Origin: Beverwykella pulmonaria
Taxonomy: Eukaryota > Ascomycota > Dothideomycetes > Pleosporales > Melanommataceae
Assembly (NCBI GenBank): GCA_001599595.1
Contig: BCHH01000015.1
Location: 401,431-465,430, forward strand
Direction: 5' to 3'
Length of the DNA: 64,000 nucleotides
The translations under genes and the position numbers were made by a program. Of this stretch, positions 4,675 through 48,139 are shown one piece after another (positions within the stretch are counted from its first letter, which is position 1; every line of letters begins with the position of its first letter). Below the pieces are notes generated by a model that was not told where the DNA came from, ran no database searches, and was given only the letters and a program-made list of their open reading frames with translations.

Positions 4675-5416
4675 CTTGCAATCTAATTTGGCCTATTTTT
4701 TATCCTCCTTTTGCTGCAACAGCTCCTTGGCACAGGCCACCTTAGCCAGGCTAAAAAATAGCTGGTAATGCTTATCCTTAGCACGTAGAAGCTCTGTAAG
4801 ATTTTTGCCACGCTTTCCCTTCTTCTTCTCTGCAACTACTATAGCTTAGAGATTAGATACTTTATCTCTTAGAAGGATAGCTGTATTAAGAAGATGGAGG
4901 ACTGTGTTCTTAAGCAGCCAGCCATTAGGTGTAAGCGTAGATACCTCTTCTGTAAGCAGCTGCTAAATCCTTCTCTTATCTTTCAAGGAGAGCTTAGAGT
5001 TGCTAGAGTTGCTGCTGGATGGCCAAGGGGGCTCTTTTAACAGCTCTATTTTAAATGTATTAAGGACAATAGCCTTGTTAAGCAGATAGATGCCGCACTG
5101 CTAAAATCCTAATAGGATATTCTTTTTTGTAAATAATTTAACCTAGGCTGTGTAGAACAGCTTAAAGAAATTACATTTTGTAAGTGCTGAGAGGCCCTAA
5201 GTACAGTGCATGTAGCTGTTTAGCTCTAAGGTGTAGGCGCTTTAAAGAGGGCTAAACAACGTACAATCTAATAGCTAGGTTTAATGAGTAGTATAAGGTA
5301 GGAGGATATTAACAAGGATCCTGTGCTTTATACAGTACTCAAGAAAAGTTATAGTAACGTGCAAGCTGTGGCCATCTATTATTAGAAGTCTCTAGTCCCT
5401 GCTATTACAAGCCTTA

Positions 5417-6040
5417 TGTTACGGTTCGAAGAAGTAGCACAGATGCGGGCTGCAGATGAGGAACCAACCCCGTCAACAGGCGCAGCACGGCGCGCAGGCG
5501 GGCGCAAAGGAACAGCGAGGATTCGCGCAGGTAAGCGAGGCACGTGACAGAAGATATCCCGCCAAGGAAGAGGAAACTCGGAAGAATCGAAGGATCCTCA
5601 AGATCCCGCCAAGGAAGGGGAAACTCGGAAGAATTGAAGGATCCCAGAAAATTCCGCCAAGACAAAGGAAACTCGGGAGAATCGAAGGATCCCAGAAGAT
5701 CACGCCAAGACACAGGAAACTCGGGAGAATTGAAGGATCCCAATTATCCCGCCAAGAAGAAGGGAGACCTGGGAGACTCGGGATTCCATGGTCAAAGAGG
5801 AAATATATAAGGAGGACAGTTTCCTATGTTATGTTTGCTCTTTGTAGTCAACTCAAATAACTTCACTCGTCTCTTACCCAGATTGATACAGCAAGTTAGT
5901 TAGTCAATTTATTGATTGGATTTACCACCCCGTTGTCTTATATCATCGTCTTCGAACCTCACAGAATAATCCTACGACACCTACGCTTACGCACCGCCTT
6001 AGTACGGACCGGACCCAGTAAGTGTTCACCTCGTATAACA
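5417..6040 (+). repeat. Solo LTR, family A, TSD CCTTA
   Basis: Begins TGTTACGG, ends TATAACA, and is flanked by CCTTA at 5412-5416 and 6041-6045. Bases ~5545-5765 hold about five ~47-bp tandem repeats built on cccgccaaggaagaggaaac, followed by a TATA motif (atatataagg near 5805). An inverted relative lies at 22371-22954. Inserted into the pogo-like element. Confidence 0.92.
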
Positions 6041-6515
6041 CCTTAGCCTTAGTCTTACAATTAAAAACTTTTTCTACCCACTTAATTGCCACCTTATTAT
6101 TTGTCTAACTAGTCTCTGTACTAGTAAAGTAGCAAAGCTGCGTCTTAGGATTAAAGTCTTGGAACTAGGAGTCTATTAGAGTAGTATTTTTAGCTGGGTA
6201 GATGAGAGCTGGGGGGACCTAGCTGCTGTCAACACTAATACATGCTATAAGCGTAATCTACTTGTGATTGCTATTAGTGCTAGCCCCCTTTAAATAGCTA
6301 CTCTCCTAGAGATCCTTGGAGAATATTTGCTTAAGCATGGTAAGGATCCCTGGCAAAAAGCCTTTCTCATCTATATTGTATGTGTTACATGGCTAGATGT
6401 TGTACTTCTTTACCTTCTCTGCTAATCTGTCGTAGAATGGCCCTATCTATACTGGGTTATTAGCTCATTTTTGTTTAATGTTAAATGCTTTGAGATATCC
6501 ACTATCCAGTTGATC

Positions 6516-35232: not shown

Positions 35233-35748
35233 TATAAGAGGCTACAGACCTTAGGAATACTTAGTTAGTAAACCTTAGAACCTTAGGCCAGGGTGACTAA
35301 GCACATTTTACGTATATAGCTAAGGTTCCCAACCTCCAAGATAAAAGAGGCCACAGACCTTGGGAGGCCGCAGACCTTAGGAGGCCACAGACCTTAGGTG
35401 GCCACATACCTTAGGAGGCCACAGACCTTGGGTGGCCACATACCCCAGGAGGCCACAGACCTTGGGTAGCCACATACCTCAGGAGGCAACAGACCTTGGG
35501 TGGCCACATACCTTAGGAGGCAGCAGACCTTGGGTGGCCACATACCTTAGGAGGCAACAGACCTTGGGTGGCCACATACCTCAGGAGGCCACAGACCTCG
35601 GGAGGCCACAGACCTCGGAACCTCTGATCAGGGTGACTAAGCACATTCCATGTATATAGCTGAGGTTCCAAACCTCCGAGACTCTGCATCGAATTCATAA
35701 GTATTCTTCTGGCACTACATTGGCTCCTCGAGCACCTGGCCCCTTACA
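35233..35748 (+). repeat. 3' LTR, family C, with internal minisatellite
   Basis: Starts TATAAGAGGC (TG changed to TA) after a purine tract and ends CCCCTTACA. It is inverted relative to the solo LTR at 2392-2753. Bases ~35360-35610 hold about eight imperfect ~34-bp repeats (ggccacataccttaggaggc / acagaccttgggtggcc). The flanking 5-mers GGGTA and CACTA do not match, consistent with one LTR of a longer element. Confidence 0.75.
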
Positions 35749-40465: not shown

Positions 40466-41784
40466 CACCCCCCTCCCATGAACGGATTTGTAGTGTGGTT
40501 ACAAAGCAGGTCCGTGCATGGAAGCTGCATGAAGCTACTGGAAACAATACATAAGTTTATATAAGGCTCCAATACAAAGCCAAGGTATTTTTCTTATCCA
40601 GTCAGCCACCTATCATCCACCCACCATGCCAAAAACACCAAATCGTCGACTCACATACAAGGAGCGCGTCAAAATCCATACACTTGCAGAGATCAGATGG
40701 AAGCAAACAGCGATCTCCAAACAGCTAGGAATCTCACAACAAACTATTTCCAATTGCCTTCGATCACCCACAACTCCTACAAAGCCTAAGGGTAGAGAAC
40801 CTATACTTAATACCCCACTTCGACACCTCCTTGTTCGCCATGCCACTGAAAATGTTGAACAACGTCGAAAAACCAGAGAGCAGATTGCTCAAGAGCTTGG
40901 GATTAACGTGTGCCGTCGTACACTTATCAAGGCCTTTGAAAAGGAGCTCTACCACCGCAGGAAGGCAACAAAGAAGCCTTTTATCTCTGAGGAGAACAAG
41001 GCCTTAAGGCTGCAATGGGCATGGAGTCACCTTTGGTGGGGAGAAGAGCAGTGGACTAGAGCTAGCTGGAGCAATAAGATGACAGCTCAAGTTGGCCAAG
41101 GAGAGATATGGGTGACTCGCAGAGCTGAGGAGGCCTTGCTACCTAATTGTCTTGTCCCACAATTCAAGAACTTTAGCAGCTGCATGGTGTGGAGCATCAT
41201 TTCAATCCACACTAAAGGACCTCTTGTATTCTTTGAGAAGGAGTGGTGTACAAACGAGAAAGGCACTGTTGATTCAAATGTCTATATTCAACATATCCTA
41301 CCCTTGGTTTCAACTCACCAGCAGGACTACAAGGCTTCCTCAGGCAAAGAACATATCTATATAGAGGACAACGCCTCAGTACACAACTCAAAGGCCACAA
41401 GAGCTGCCTTTAAAGCTCTAGGAATCAACAAGTCGTGGTGGCCAGCTAATTCCCCAGACCTCAATCCAATCAAAAACGTGTGGCAGCTTCTAAAGTGGCG
41501 GCTGGCGAAGCGCTTCCCTAAAACTAACGCTGAGGTAAAGCAATACCTTAAGGAGGAGTGGGATAAAATTGAAGTTAATGACTTTAAGAAGTATATTACT
41601 TCCATGCATGAGCGTTGCTGGGCAGTTATCCAGGCAGGCGGCGGGCCTACCAAGTGGTAGATGAGAAATGTCAATTTGATGACTGTTTGTATGTAATTTA
41701 CATGGAAAATAACATATATTCGCCTCTGCGTGCACAGACGAAAAGATTCTCCGACGCTACAAATCCGTTCATGGGAGGGGGGTG
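40466..41784 (+). mobile_element. Full-length mariner element with 29-bp inverted repeats, TA target
   Basis: Ends cacccccctcccatgaacgg (40466) and the inverted copy to 41784 match over ~29 bp, flanked by TA (40464-40465, 41785-41786). It is 1,319 bp with one uninterrupted transposase frame, the classic mariner size. Best-preserved DNA element in the window, with no other copy here. Confidence 0.93.
40626..41660 (+). CDS. Mariner-family transposase, open frame but catalytic residues changed
   Basis: 344 residues. N-terminal helix-turn-helix (YKERVKIHTLAEI ... ISKQLGISQQTISNCL, about residues 11-47), a second one (REQIAQELGINVCRRTL, 84-100), then the DDE core. The first catalytic position reads SWSNKMTAQ where the family has SDE, the second is IYIEDNASVH (Asp kept), and the third block is NSPDLNPIKNVW where Glu normally precedes Asn. 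So the first Asp is Asn and the third acid is Lys, both G-to-A changes. Length and frame are intact, yet cut-and-paste activity is very unlikely. It may still bind its inverted repeats. Confidence 0.88.
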   Translation: MPKTPNRRLTYKERVKIHTLAEIRWKQTAISKQLGISQQTISNCLRSPTTPTKPKGREPILNTPLRHLLVRHATENVEQRRKTREQIAQELGINVCRRTLIKAFEKELYHRRKATKKPFISEENKALRLQWAWSHLWWGEEQWTRASWSNKMTAQVGQGEIWVTRRAEEALLPNCLVPQFKNFSSCMVWSIISIHTKGPLVFFEKEWCTNEKGTVDSNVYIQHILPLVSTHQQDYKASSGKEHIYIEDNASVHNSKATRAAFKALGINKSWWPANSPDLNPIKNVWQLLKWRLAKRFPKTNAEVKQYLKEEWDKIEVNDFKKYITSMHERCWAVIQAGGGPTKW

Positions 41785-43710: not shown

Positions 43711-46700
43711 ATGAGATCCTTCTTGTTGCTTGGCATGATTACACCCTTGATGGCTTCCGCCCTCCCGAGTACTCCCGACGCCCTCCTTAGTATTATTCCC
43801 GACGCCCTCCCTAGTATTATTCCCGACACCCTCCCTATTATTCCCGACCTGTTCGGCAAAACAGAACAAGCGCTTGAGGTTCGACAGGTGTTGGTAAGTC
43901 ATTTTCATGTCGTTTTTGGGTCTACTGATGAGGCAAGTTGCTAACTGCTGGTCGCGGTGTAGACAGTAAGTCATTTTCATGTCGTTTTTTGATCTACTGA
44001 TGAGGCAAGTCGCTAACTGCTGGTCGTGGTGCAGCCTGTAAGTGGATACCTTCTTGTTTAATCACTAATGAGGCAACTTGCTAACTAGTGGTTGTGTTGC
44101 AGTGTGTAAGTGAATCAAGTCTTCTTGCTTAACAGGCTATAAGGGAAATCGCTAACTGTTGGTCTTGGTGCAGACTGTAAGTAGATACCTTCTTTAACCA
44201 GCTGATGATGGAACTTGCTAACTGCTGCTCGTGGTGTAGCTTGTAAGTGGACCCGACGTCCTTAACAGGTTGATGAAGGAAGTTGCTGATTGCTGGTTGT
44301 GGTGCAGAGTGTGAGTGGATACCTTCTTGTTTAGTCACTAATGAGGCAACTGGCTAACTAGTGGTTGTGTTGCAGTGTGTAAGTAAATCAATTATGCTTG
44401 TTTAACAGGCTAATAAAAGAAATCTCTAACTGTTGGTCGTGGTGCAGACAGTAAGTGGATACCTTCTTGTTTAACAGGTTGATGAGGCAAGTTGCTAATT
44501 GCTGATGGTGGTACAGGCAGTAAGTGGACCCGATATTCCTGATTGAAAGGTTAATGCAGCACTAATTGCTGGTCATGGTGCAGACTGTAAGTGGATACCT
44601 TGTTCTATATAAACTCATGAGGCAAATTGCTAATTGCTAGTGGTACAGGGTGTAAGTAAATCTTATATCCTTGCTTGATAGTCTAATAAAGCACTAACTG
44701 CTTGTCATGATGCAGACGGTAAGTTGACTTGATGTCCTTGCTTGAAAGGCTAATGAAGCATTAACTACTGGTCGTGTTACAGGTTGTAAGTGAATTCCGT
44801 GTTCTGGCTTAACAGACGAAGGCAAGTTACTAACAGCCAATGGTGATACAGTGTGTAAGTGGACCCTATTGCCTTGCTTGAAAGGTTAATTAGGCAAGTT
44901 TCTAACTGCTAGTGGTGGTGCAGTTTGTAAGTAAATCCCCTTTTCCGACCCGGCAGGCTGATGAAACAAGTTGCTAATTGCTGATTCTGGTACAGTCAGT
45001 AAGTGGACCCGATATTCCTGATTGAAAGGTTAATGCAGCACTAATTGCTGGTCATGGTGCAGGCTGTAAGTGGATACCTTGTTCTATATAAATTCATGAG
45101 GCAAATTGCTAATTGCTAGTGGTACAGGGTGTACGTAAATCTTATATCCCTGCTTGATAGTCCAATAAAGCACTAACTTCTGGTCGTGATACAGTGTGTA
45201 AGTGGATCCAATGTTCTTACTTGATAGACTTAAAGAAACTAACCTCCGGTGGTGGTACAGACTGTAAGTGGAGCCGGTATCCTTACTTGACAGGCTGATA
45301 AATCATTAACTCATGGTCATGTTATAGCTCGTAAGTGAATCCAATAGTCTTATTTGCCCTTATTTAACCAGATGATGATGGAACTTGCTAACTACTGGTC
45401 GTGGTGTAGCTTGTAAGTGGACCCGATGTCCTTACTTGACTGGCTGATGAAGCAAGTTGCTAACTGCTGGTCTTGTTTCAGGGAGTAAGTGGACACCTTC
45501 TTGTTTAACCAGTTGATGAGGCAAGTTGCTAACCGATGGTCGTGGTGTAGCTTGTAAGTGGACCCGATATCCTTGCTTGACAGGAAGTTGCTAACTGCTG
45601 GTCTTGTTTCAGGGAGTAAGTAGATACCTTCTTGTTTAGCCGGTTGACGAGGCAAGTTGCTAACTGCTGGTCTTGTTTCAGGGAGTAAGTAGATACCTTC
45701 TTGTTTAGCCGGTTGACGAGGCAAGTTGCTAACCTATGGTCGTGCTGTAGGTTGTAAGTGGACCCGATGTCCTTGCTTGACAGGCTGATGAAGCNAGTTG
45801 CTAACTGCTGGTCTTGTTTCAGGGAGTAAGTGGATACCTTCTTGTTTAACCGGTTGATGAAGCAAGTTGCTAACTGCTGGTTTTGTTTCAGGGAGTAAGT
45901 GGACACTTTCTTGTTTAACCGGTTGATGAGGCAAGTTGCTAACCTATGGTCGTGCTGTAGGTTGTAAGTGGACCCGATGTCCTTGCTCGACAGGCTGATG
46001 AAGCAAGTTGTTAACCTCTGGTCGTGGTGTAGGTTGTAAGTAGACCCGATATCCTTACTCGACAGGCTGATGAAGCAAGTTGTTAACTGCTGGTCTTGTT
46101 TCAGGGAGTAAGTAGATACCTTCTTTTTTAACCGGTTGGTGAGGCAAGTTGCTAACCACTGGTCGTGCTGTAGATTGTAAGTAGACCCGATGTCCTTGCT
46201 TGACAGGCTGATCAGGCAAGTCGCTAACTTTTGGCCGTGGTACAGACTGTAAGTGAAACGCCCCCATATACTTGATAGACCGATCAGGCAAGTCGCTAAC
46301 TTTTGGTCGTGGTGCAGACTGTAAGTGGAACGCCTCCATGTCTTTGCCTGGTAAACTTATAAGCAAATTGCTAACTGCTGGTCTTGTTTCAGGGAGTAAG
46401 TGGATACCTTCTTTAACCAGCTGAGGATGGAACTTGCTAACTGTTGGTCGTGATTTAGATTGTAAGTGGGCCCGATATCCTTGCTTGACAGGCTGCTCAG
46501 GCAAGTCGCTAACCGCTAGTGGTGTAGGTCGTAAGTCAATACCTTCTTGCTTAATCAATTGATGAGGCAAGTCACTAATTGTTGGTTGTGATGCAGAATG
46601 TAAGTGGTTTTCTTGTTGATAGGCTCACGAAGGAAGCTACTAACTGCTGGTTGTGGTGTAGGCTGTAAGTTGGCCTGATGTCCTTGTTTGAAAGATCAAT

Positions 46701-47811
46701 GAAGCATTAACTGTCGGCCGTGTTGTAGCTTGTAAGTTGACCTAATGTTATTACTTGAAATACTAATGAAGAATTAACTGATGGTCGTGGTGTAGCTTGT
46801 AAGTGGACCCGATGTCCATGCTTGACTGGCTGATGAAGCAAGTTGCTAACTGCTAGTCTTGTTTCAGGGAGTAAGTAGATACCTTCTTGTTTAACCGGTT
46901 GGTGAGGCAAGTTGCTAACCTATGGTCGTGCTGTAGGTTGTAAGTGGACCCGATATCCTTACTCGACAGGCTGATGAAGCAAGTTGTTAACTGCTAGTCT
47001 TGTTTTAGGGAGTAAGTAGATACCTTCTTGTTTAACTGGTTGATGAGGCAAATTGCTAACTGATGGCCGTGCTGTAGATTGTAAGTAGACCCGATGTCCT
47101 TACTTGACAGGCTGATCAGGCAAGTCGCTAACTTTTGGTCGTGGTGCAGACTGTAAGTGGAATACCCCATGTCTTTGCCTAGTAGACTTATAAGCAAGTT
47201 ATTAACTGCTGATCTTGTTTCAGGGAGTAAGTGAATACCTTCTTGTTTAACCGGTTGATGAGGCAAGTTGCTAACCGCTGGTCATGCTGTAGATTGTAAG
47301 TAGGCCCGATGTCCTTGCTTGACAGGCTGATCAGGCAAGTCGCTAACTTTTGGTCGTGGTGAAGTCTGTAAGTGGAATGCCCCATGTCTTTGCCTGGTAA
47401 ACTTATAAGCAAGTTATTAACTGCTAGTCTTGTTTCAGGGAGTAAGTGGATACCTTCTTGTTTAACCGGTTGATGAGGCAAGTTGCTAACTGCTGGTCGT
47501 GCTGTAGATTGTAAGTAGACCCGATATCCTTGCTTGACAGGCTGATCAGGCAAGTCGCTAACTTTTGGTCGTGGTGCAGACTGTAAGTGGAACGCCCCCA
47601 TGCCTTTGCCTGGTAAACTTATAAGGGAAATTGCTAACTGCTGTTTGTGGTGAAGGTTGTAAGTGGATCCTGTGTTCTTGTTTGACAAGCTGATAAGGCA
47701 AGTCGCTAATTGCTTGTCATGGTGCAGTGTGTAAGTGGATTCCTATGCATTTTCTATAGTGAGATGCTGGTGATTTGGCGAGAGCGATACTAACTATTAA
47801 TTTAGCCATAG
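43711..47811 (+). CDS. Secreted protein encoded by exon 1 plus 55 three-nucleotide micro-exons
   Basis: Exon 1 (43711-43893, 61 codons, ends in phase 0) encodes a signal peptide (MRSFLLLGMITPLMASA) and four imperfect 8-residue repeats (core IIPDAL). From 43894 to 47805 run 56 consecutive intron-like units. Donors are GTAAGT except intron 7 (GTGAGT) and 19 (GTACGT); acceptors are CAG/TAG except 50 and 54 (AAG). Nearly all have CTAAC, CTAAT or TTAAC 15-25 nt before the acceptor. Adjacent units are separated by exactly 3 nt in all 55 cases, always a sense codon; the last acceptor is followed by CCA TAG. The product would be 117 residues with Cys at 64, 68, 75, 80 and 116 and a Gly/Val/Ile/Thr-rich stretch at 84-115. 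Micro-exon codons: 11 GGA, 7 ACT, 6 GTT, 5 each ATT, CTT, TGT, 16 others. Without splicing a 77-residue protein results. No family recognised; splicing untested. Confidence 0.7.
43894..47805 (+). repeat. Tandem array of 56 intron-like units (59-79 nt)
   Basis: Unit consensus: gtaagtggataccttcttg, a variable middle, gatgaggcaagttgctaact, ggtcgtggtgcag, then 3 nt and the next gtaagt. Unit lengths vary (59, 62-66, 68, 69, 71-73, 75, 79; most often 66 or 69). Later units fall into subtypes tied to the following codon: tcttgtttcag precedes GGA, gtgctgtag precedes ATT or GTT, gtggtgcag precedes ACT, gtggtgtag precedes CTT. Higher-order copies of two or three units occur after ~45400, implying recent tandem growth. 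One ambiguous base n at 45795. Confidence 0.95.
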
Positions 47812-48139
47812 TTCGGAAAGAGGTAGCTGTTGCAGAGATGGATACGATAGTTTTTTCCGTTGTATGGAGTTCCTAAATAGGTTTCAGCTCAGGCCGGACG
47901 AAACGGGTTACTGTCACTACTATACATGAGTTGCGAATATCAATTTCATTCTATTAGAGCAGGTTCATCCTTAATATTGCTGTGGCGTACATTCTATCGT
48001 TGTGTAAAACTCGCTAGACTTAATCTTTGCCTGGGCGAGATCTAGCTCGGCAACATAGTTAAAGGGATTGGAAACAAACATCCCTCAGCTAAATTGAACT
48101 AACCAAAAGTGCTCTAGGTAGAAACATTTTTCATGAATT
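47812..48139. other. Presumed 3' flank of the micro-exon gene
   Basis: No open frame of note. Would contain the 3' untranslated region and terminator. Confidence 0.4.

Follow-up and report, generated by a model that had tools for sequence, protein, structure and literature searches.

Putative genes spelled largely one codon per exon in the fungus Beverwykella pulmonaria

Among described genes built from very small exons, the nearest known systems appear to be the micro-exon genes (MEGs) of schistosomes and the bicycle genes of aphids, judging from the excerpts of the cited papers to which all our statements on published systems refer. The Schistosoma MEGs have exons of 6-81 bp (3-81 bp is also given), mostly of 15 bp, separated by introns of 0.1-5 kbp (PMC10526429), and the bicycle genes possess about 17 exons on average, one megacycle gene containing more than 100 micro-exons (PMC9168663). 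We report here on a locus of the dothideomycete Beverwykella pulmonaria (assembly GCA_001599595.1), located in a stretch of 64,000 nucleotides (nt) of contig BCHH01000015.1 (positions 401,431 to 465,430, hereafter the window), in which a signal-peptide-like exon is followed by a long array of introns separated by gaps of three nucleotides. The original prediction, made from this sequence alone, knew of no described gene in which half a protein is spelled one codon per exon, and the literature consulted, chiefly open-licence PMC papers and a few preprints, likewise yielded no account of consecutive exons of one codon each. In our assessment the window gene and its paralogues in the same genome are, with high probability, real coding genes in which each small exon would supply one codon and which would have grown by duplication of intron-plus-codon units.

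A script parse of the window gene agrees with the predicted layout, with 56 introns in a row (43894-47805) of 59-79 nt and 55 gaps which are all of exactly 3 nt. The 55 gap triplets are all sense codons, as predicted, although this is weaker evidence than it appears because their third base is mostly T. Translation of the joined exons would give 117 residues: exon 1 contributes 61, the codon-exons 55 and the terminal exon a single proline, so that 55 of the 117 amino acids would each originate from their own 3-nt exon. The splice signals are highly uniform: the donor is GTAAGT in 54 of the 56 introns (GTGAGT and GTACGT once each), and the acceptors are CAG (34), TAG (20) and AAG (2). A branch-like motif is present in all 56 introns, but the exact CTAAC initially attributed to each of them occurs in only 37, the others having TTAAC (7), CTGAT (6) or CTAAT (6); in 47 introns the branch-like motif begins at a distance of 22 nt from the end. 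The word YAGNNNGTAAGT is found 51 times in the window, every copy lying inside the array, against a mean of 1.41 and a maximum of 5 in shuffled sequence. A single N is present in an array intron near 45795.

Whereas the window locus was first described as a single gene, it is one of at least seven predicted family members that share its build, each spelling another peptide. The motif GTAAGT-N50..80-AG-NNN-GTAAGT has 163 + 220 = 383 matches in the 45.6-Mb genome and 15 + 14 = 29 in a reversed control. The arrays are located on C1 (locus L005), C2 (L006), C3 (L007, L008, L009 and L010), C5 (L011) and C15 (L013 and the window), short or decayed arrays being found on C11, C6 and C10 (L012, L014 and L015, respectively, the last an array fragment). 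The full build is displayed by the window gene, L005, L006, L007, L008, L011 and L013, all of which have a similar first exon, introns of one family, a terminal exon with the stop codon and a motif in the 3' untranslated region (3'UTR), of which only the first part was in view for L007 and L008. The largest array, with up to 88 codon-exons, is that of L007. Read by eye, all seven first exons have a hydrophobic, signal-peptide-like start; they end in RQ in five genes, in TRD in L006 and in RQVL in the window gene. In the six paralogues the last acceptor is directly followed by a stop codon and then by a similar motif, this stop being read by eye in L005 and L013, where the automatic parse chose a later acceptor, whereas the window gene has one proline codon before its stop. 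The predicted Pro-stop end of the window gene was retained through this comparison, which places the end of its final intron at 47805; the automatic parse favoured 47835, and a third candidate is the AG whose last base is 47811. In this final intron CTAAC begins 16 nt before the end, as it does, by eye, in the last introns of L005, L006 and L011. An assembly gap (N) of about 1.09 kb lies inside the L013 array, at about 5070-6159 of that locus, with similar units on either side. A search for intronless copies with the L011 first exon and the L008 product as protein queries matched their own genes, L006, L007 and L013, with one further, chance-like match (E 0.6); its sensitivity was limited, since the first exons of the window gene and L005 went unmatched.

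The coding nature of the triplets is best supported by three paralogues, L007, L008 and L013, whose joined triplets give alignable proteins. Over 24 codons of L008 and L013, of which 15 encode identical amino acids, codon positions 1 and 2 agree at 0.77 in register and at 0.24-0.38 out of register, while the free intron sites agree at 0.749 in register and at 0.66-0.73 out of it; a seven-codon stretch of this pair gives 0.79 in register against 0-0.50. Over 16 codons, both L007/L013 and L007/L008 reach 0.66 in register against 0.07-0.46, with introns at 0.699 against 0.69-0.75 for the first pair and at 0.749 against 0.70-0.76 for the second. The introns thus retain little (L008/L013) or no (the pairs with L007) register signal. 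When the last 34 units were aligned and the unit order was shuffled, the amino-acid alignments had z values of 13.3 (L008/L013), 6.6 (L007/L013) and 4.9 (L007/L008). With triplets taken at 15 intron positions as an internal control, the nucleotide triplets of the exons reached z 14.9 for L008/L013, against at most 4.5 for the introns, and z 5.3 for L007/L013, against at most 2.5. Such in-register agreement would be difficult to account for if the triplets were not spliced together and translated, and it supports the earlier suggestion that the constant one-codon exons reflect selection on the reading frame. The 420 triplets of 3-nt exons in the seven genes contain no stop codon where 3.9 would be expected, stop-free sets occurring among shuffles at 0.018; they also lack Met and Trp, which fits the rarity of G before the donor (9/420).

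These results bear on the possibility that the whole array is one composite intron whose removal joins exon 1 directly with the terminal exon, its units being decoys or an intronic tandem repeat and the product a bare signal peptide and propeptide. Outer donor and acceptor are indeed present, repeats are able to grow within introns, and skipping the array would leave a short open product in the paralogues, as their terminal exon starts with a stop. We nevertheless regard this reading as improbable, because the triplets of three paralogues agree in register while their introns hardly or do not, the triplets are free of stops and the units have kept donor, branch and acceptor; moreover, the product would be devoid of a mature peptide.

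For the window gene, the case for coding triplets is made by the common build together with features of its own array, the direct evidence of codon conservation being that of the paralogues because its peptide aligned to no tested paralogue. Among pairs of window units, in the three bins of highest intron similarity (8, 29 and 44 pairs, which are not independent), the codons differ 1.7-4.5 times more per site than the intron sites outside donor and acceptor. Conversely, GGA is the codon of every one of the 11 units whose acceptor is TTTYAG, while their introns, of 59-72 nt, differ at 17% of sites.

Exon length was assessed with a free parse, in which chains were scored on donor, branch and acceptor and exon length was allowed to vary from 0 to 60 nt. 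In the seven genes of full build, which this count covers, 420 of the 427 internal exons are of 3 nt, and other parse settings applied to twelve loci gave 318/320 and 408/412. The seven exceptions are mostly parse ambiguities or lie at array ends. Two of 0 nt (L008 and L013) and one of 4 nt (L007, where 0 nt is the other reading) are all located at the junction of introns 1 and 2, while those of 7 and 13 nt each have a 3-nt alternative by eye. The 9-nt exon corresponds to a unit near the start of the L006 array whose acceptor AG has been lost, and where use of an AG further upstream would give an in-frame exon; the 56-nt one lies beyond the L011 stop. Intron length is more variable, 114 of 419 introns differing from 69 nt and 83 not being multiples of 3; the rate of these changes predicts about five altered exons where seven exceptions were observed, and this comparison by itself settles nothing. 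Retention of any one of 418 introns would be disruptive, introducing an in-frame stop in 410 cases and shifting the frame in eight. The introns gave no sign of a conserved RNA structure: for 304 distinct sequences of 69 nt, the consensus fold had an energy of 0.0 kcal/mol against a mean of -0.16 for shuffled columns.

In a set of 305 introns, all 69 nt long, the average information is 1.89 bits in the donor columns and 1.13 in the intron columns outside donor and acceptor, whereas the three columns of the exon triplet hold 0.09, 0.08 and 0.77 bits. The triplet does not track the repeat. This distribution runs against two further explanations. According to the first, the arrays would be a non-coding minisatellite whose unit of about 72 nt resembles an intron by chance. 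The units are plainly tandem duplicates with a period near 72, but their most conserved columns are donor, branch and acceptor AG and their least conserved ones the triplet, and the seven loci have first exon, stop exon and 3'UTR in common. In addition, two arrays with dissimilar introns (L009 and L010, see below) have the same 3-nt spacing, and a true satellite in this genome, at C6:1862661, has no branch motif; a chance resemblance is thus very improbable. The second explanation, a tandem-repeat protein with units of about 23-24 amino acids encoded on the minus strand, seems scarcely credible to us: open minus-strand frames of up to 275 amino acids cross parts of the window array, but they overlap in different frames and break up, as expected given that many units are not multiples of three, and the conserved columns are the splice signals of the plus strand. 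The 275-amino-acid frame (45529-46356, minus strand) is probably a by-product of the near-72-nt period.

The satellite just mentioned (C6:1862661 to at least 1863554) consists of perfect 74-nt repeats which include GTAAGT, lack CTAAC and are unrelated to the arrays. It was met in a genome search for equivalent arrays with exons of 4-16 nt, which gave 305 matches against 215 in the control; apart from this satellite, the matches listed are mostly 3-nt units recovered through an internal AG and scattered singles, and no other exon length was retained.

Outside the seven genes, L009 (C3:1858.8-1860.3 kb, minus strand) has a different first exon and introns of 60-80 nt, with a mean identity of 0.57 to the first 20 introns of the window array (0.50 with shuffled letters). 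Its 20 codons in a row were delineated by a motif that presumes 3-nt exons; when the free parse was run with main-family profiles, 15 of 20 exons came out at 3 nt and the other five at 32 nt. In L010, positions 1646-2238 (C3:4031145-4031737) contain seven 3-nt gaps, AAT GAG TAC AGA TTT ACT CCC, and six of the introns of this array have pairwise identities of only 0.46-0.61. By eye, these gaps are in phase 0; a protein-kinase frame lies on one side of them and, on the other, a frame that immediately precedes a HET domain. L010 could be two neighbouring genes or a single kinase-HET fusion whose linker is spelled one codon per exon. As the introns of L009 and L010 are dissimilar, 3-nt exons do not have to stem from a single repeat, and this architecture may have more than one origin. 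The decayed arrays illustrate the loss of constraint: in L014 (C6, about 1021.0-1021.8 kb) several splice signals are lost, no start was seen by eye and 4 of 6 exons are of 3 nt, and the short array of L012 (C11, about 577.5-578.2 kb) is split by an insert, with again 4 of 6 exons of 3 nt.

Several points weigh against a one-codon-per-exon coding family. The splicing is deduced from sequence, and accurate joining over 56 consecutive introns would be demanding. The units that served to train the splice-site profiles of the parse had been recovered with the 3-nt motif, which biases signal strength but not exon length, and the absence of stops from the triplets is modest evidence. The stretches compared in register were picked by their protein similarity, a choice for which the shuffle alignment test corrects, and in this test L007/L008 failed at the nucleotide level (exon z -0.1, introns up to 3.5). 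The pairs window/L008 (z 1.3), window/L013 (z 1.7), L005/L008 (z -0.6) and L006/L011 (z -1.4) did not align, and codon conservation is established, on the comparison of paralogues, for only three of the seven genes. The homology searches were also negative: no match with E up to 10 was found among 64 protein-database candidates for the window product, no protein-database homologue was found for the L006 product, and a profile of the seven-gene family retrieved no homologue among the 8000 candidates sharing most words that were scored. Predicted-protein sets would miss genes of such build.

The predicted products are of contrasted composition and may represent small secreted peptides of several kinds. 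That of the window gene has a stretch of Gly, Val, Ile and Thr; that of L005 is Gly-rich with Arg, Glu and His; those of L007, L008 and L013 are rich in Thr, Leu, Ile and Pro with a Cys pair at the C-terminus; and those of L006 and L011 are Cys-rich. The L006 product fits the spacing C-x3-7-C-x3-8-C-x0-7-C-x1-4-C-x4-13-C, which we take to be that of knottins (inhibitor cystine knots). This spacing is also found in 2.8% of shuffled orders, or in 0.5% when an adjacent CC is required; the peptide used here includes the codon whose acceptor is lost, and the fit holds without that codon but not with the 9-nt exon. Comparison of this product with Pfam and with PDB sequences gave no family and no PDB match up to E 10, and a Pfam search of the L006, L011 and L009 products gave nothing above cut-off, L009 touching DUF1505 with E 0.017. 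A role towards a host, a rival or the cell wall can only be guessed.

If the arrays are indeed genes of codon-exons, each intron would be removed by the ordinary spliceosome through intron definition. Removal would probably be stepwise, recursive and ratchet-like, since an acceptor and the next donor lying 3 nt apart could hardly be bound together; with every reaction exon 1 would gain a codon and a donor would be rebuilt beside it. An AG-GT zero-length exon is a form typical of recursive splice sites, and the AG-GT junctions between introns 1 and 2 of L008 and L013, and possibly of L007, would fit this stepwise order. A retained intron would end or shift the frame, while a skipped codon-exon would cost one residue and keep it. 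Judging by its first exon, the product is probably secreted and cleaved behind a propeptide in the habitual manner, so that the mature peptide would consist almost wholly of residues from codon-exons. As the units are tandemly related, the arrays would evolve through tandem duplication of intron-plus-codon units; the protein would therefore lengthen or shorten by whole codons, with codon positions 1 and 2 free to change.

A variant compatible with such coding genes, which we consider rather unlikely, supposes that the codon-exons are variably included, each gene giving a cloud of related peptides. Skipping would preserve the frame, given the phase 0 and the 3-nt length of nearly all exons, and the products resemble small secreted peptides, but the conserved C-terminus of L007, L008 and L013 argues for a preferred full product. 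Broader still, and somewhat less probable than its contrary, is the idea of a spliceosome working as a one-codon-at-a-time assembler of bead-like units, which would undergo duplication, loss and shuffling and so extend, trim and rewrite secreted peptides by single residues without endangering the frame, with combinatorial peptides arising through codon skipping and with at least two origins (the main family and L009), which would suggest a lineage with a standing route to new secreted peptides. If the codon-exon genes are confirmed, the 3-nt exon would be a routine substrate, joined up to 88 times in one gene (L007), and the spliceosome would prove capable of handling acceptors and donors spaced by 3 nt, in an order that would become directly testable. 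New proteins would arise through unit duplication in genes likely missed by ordinary gene finders, and others may lie unseen in further genomes.

The features of the window gene are collected in the following table. By eye, exon 1 encodes a signal peptide, then a proline-rich repeat stretch, then a propeptide end LEVRQ-VL; the repeat is a coding one of about 24 nt (PDALPSII-like, 43758-43848). Five of the six paralogues scanned have TATATA at 214-226 nt 5' of the first donor, L006 having none. About 2 kb upstream of the gene lies a Tc1/mariner-type transposase frame (40626-41660, plus strand; DDE_3, E 4.3e-15; HTH_Tnp_Tc3_2, E 1.1e-13), and a tandem repeat with a 34-nt unit, 7.9 copies and 91% matches occupies 35347-35615.

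Table. Layout of the putative codon-exon gene, in positions of the window
Feature	Positions	Strand	Remarks
Possible TATA box, TATATAAA	43591-43598	+	120 nt upstream of start codon; putative function
Exon 1	43711-43893	+	61 codons, phase 0 at its end; paralogues have a similar first exon
Array of 55 introns of 59-79 nt, one 3-nt exon after each	43894-47730	+	script parse
3-nt exon no. 1, ACA (Thr)	43963-43965	+	
3-nt exon no. 55 (final one), TGT (Cys)	47728-47730	+	
Final intron, 75 nt	47731-47805	+	
Start of terminal exon, CCA TAG (Pro + stop)	47806-47811	+	TTCGGAAAGAGG directly 3'
3'UTR motif around CCGTTGTATGGAGTTCC...GGTTTCAGCTCAGGCCGGA	47857-47897	+	by eye; common to paralogues

Several fungal and animal systems share part of these characteristics. 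The introner-like elements of Dothideomycetes are near-identical introns scattered over unrelated genes (PMC4457414). As with these elements, similar introns have multiplied here in one fungal genome and carry spliceosomal donor, branch and acceptor at the sequence level; unlike them, each intron copy would bring a codon and the copies are undispersed, a search with the intron consensus giving 168 matches of which all those listed lie inside arrays. The stwintrons of Hypoxylaceae are complex, nested fungal introns removed consecutively, in which a splice signal is split (PMC8469720, PMC9024468, PMC12403724), whereas the introns described here are complete and stand side by side, none interrupting the splice signal of another. 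Recursive splicing subdivides long introns in human and fruit fly (PMC5126111); the stepwise removal proposed here would resemble it, but one codon would be left at each step. In Fusarium, read data document the splicing of a 1-nt exon in CYP621A, and fungi are therefore able to splice tiny exons (PMC12940212), this case being an isolated exon in an enzyme gene where ours is an array.

The nearest systems remain those of animals. Like the aphid bicycle genes, which are fast-evolving putative effectors, the genes predicted here would have many micro-exons; bicycle internal exons are nearly all in phase 2 (PMC9168663), whereas those of the arrays are in phase 0, consist of one codon and are separated by a tandem intron family, of which the cited excerpts make no mention for bicycle genes or MEGs. 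With the Schistosoma MEGs they would share, as far as sequence alone can tell, the organization as a gene family, the variable secreted proteins and the many tiny in-frame exons, and they differ from them in having exons of 3 nt and introns of 58-79 nt which are tandemly related.

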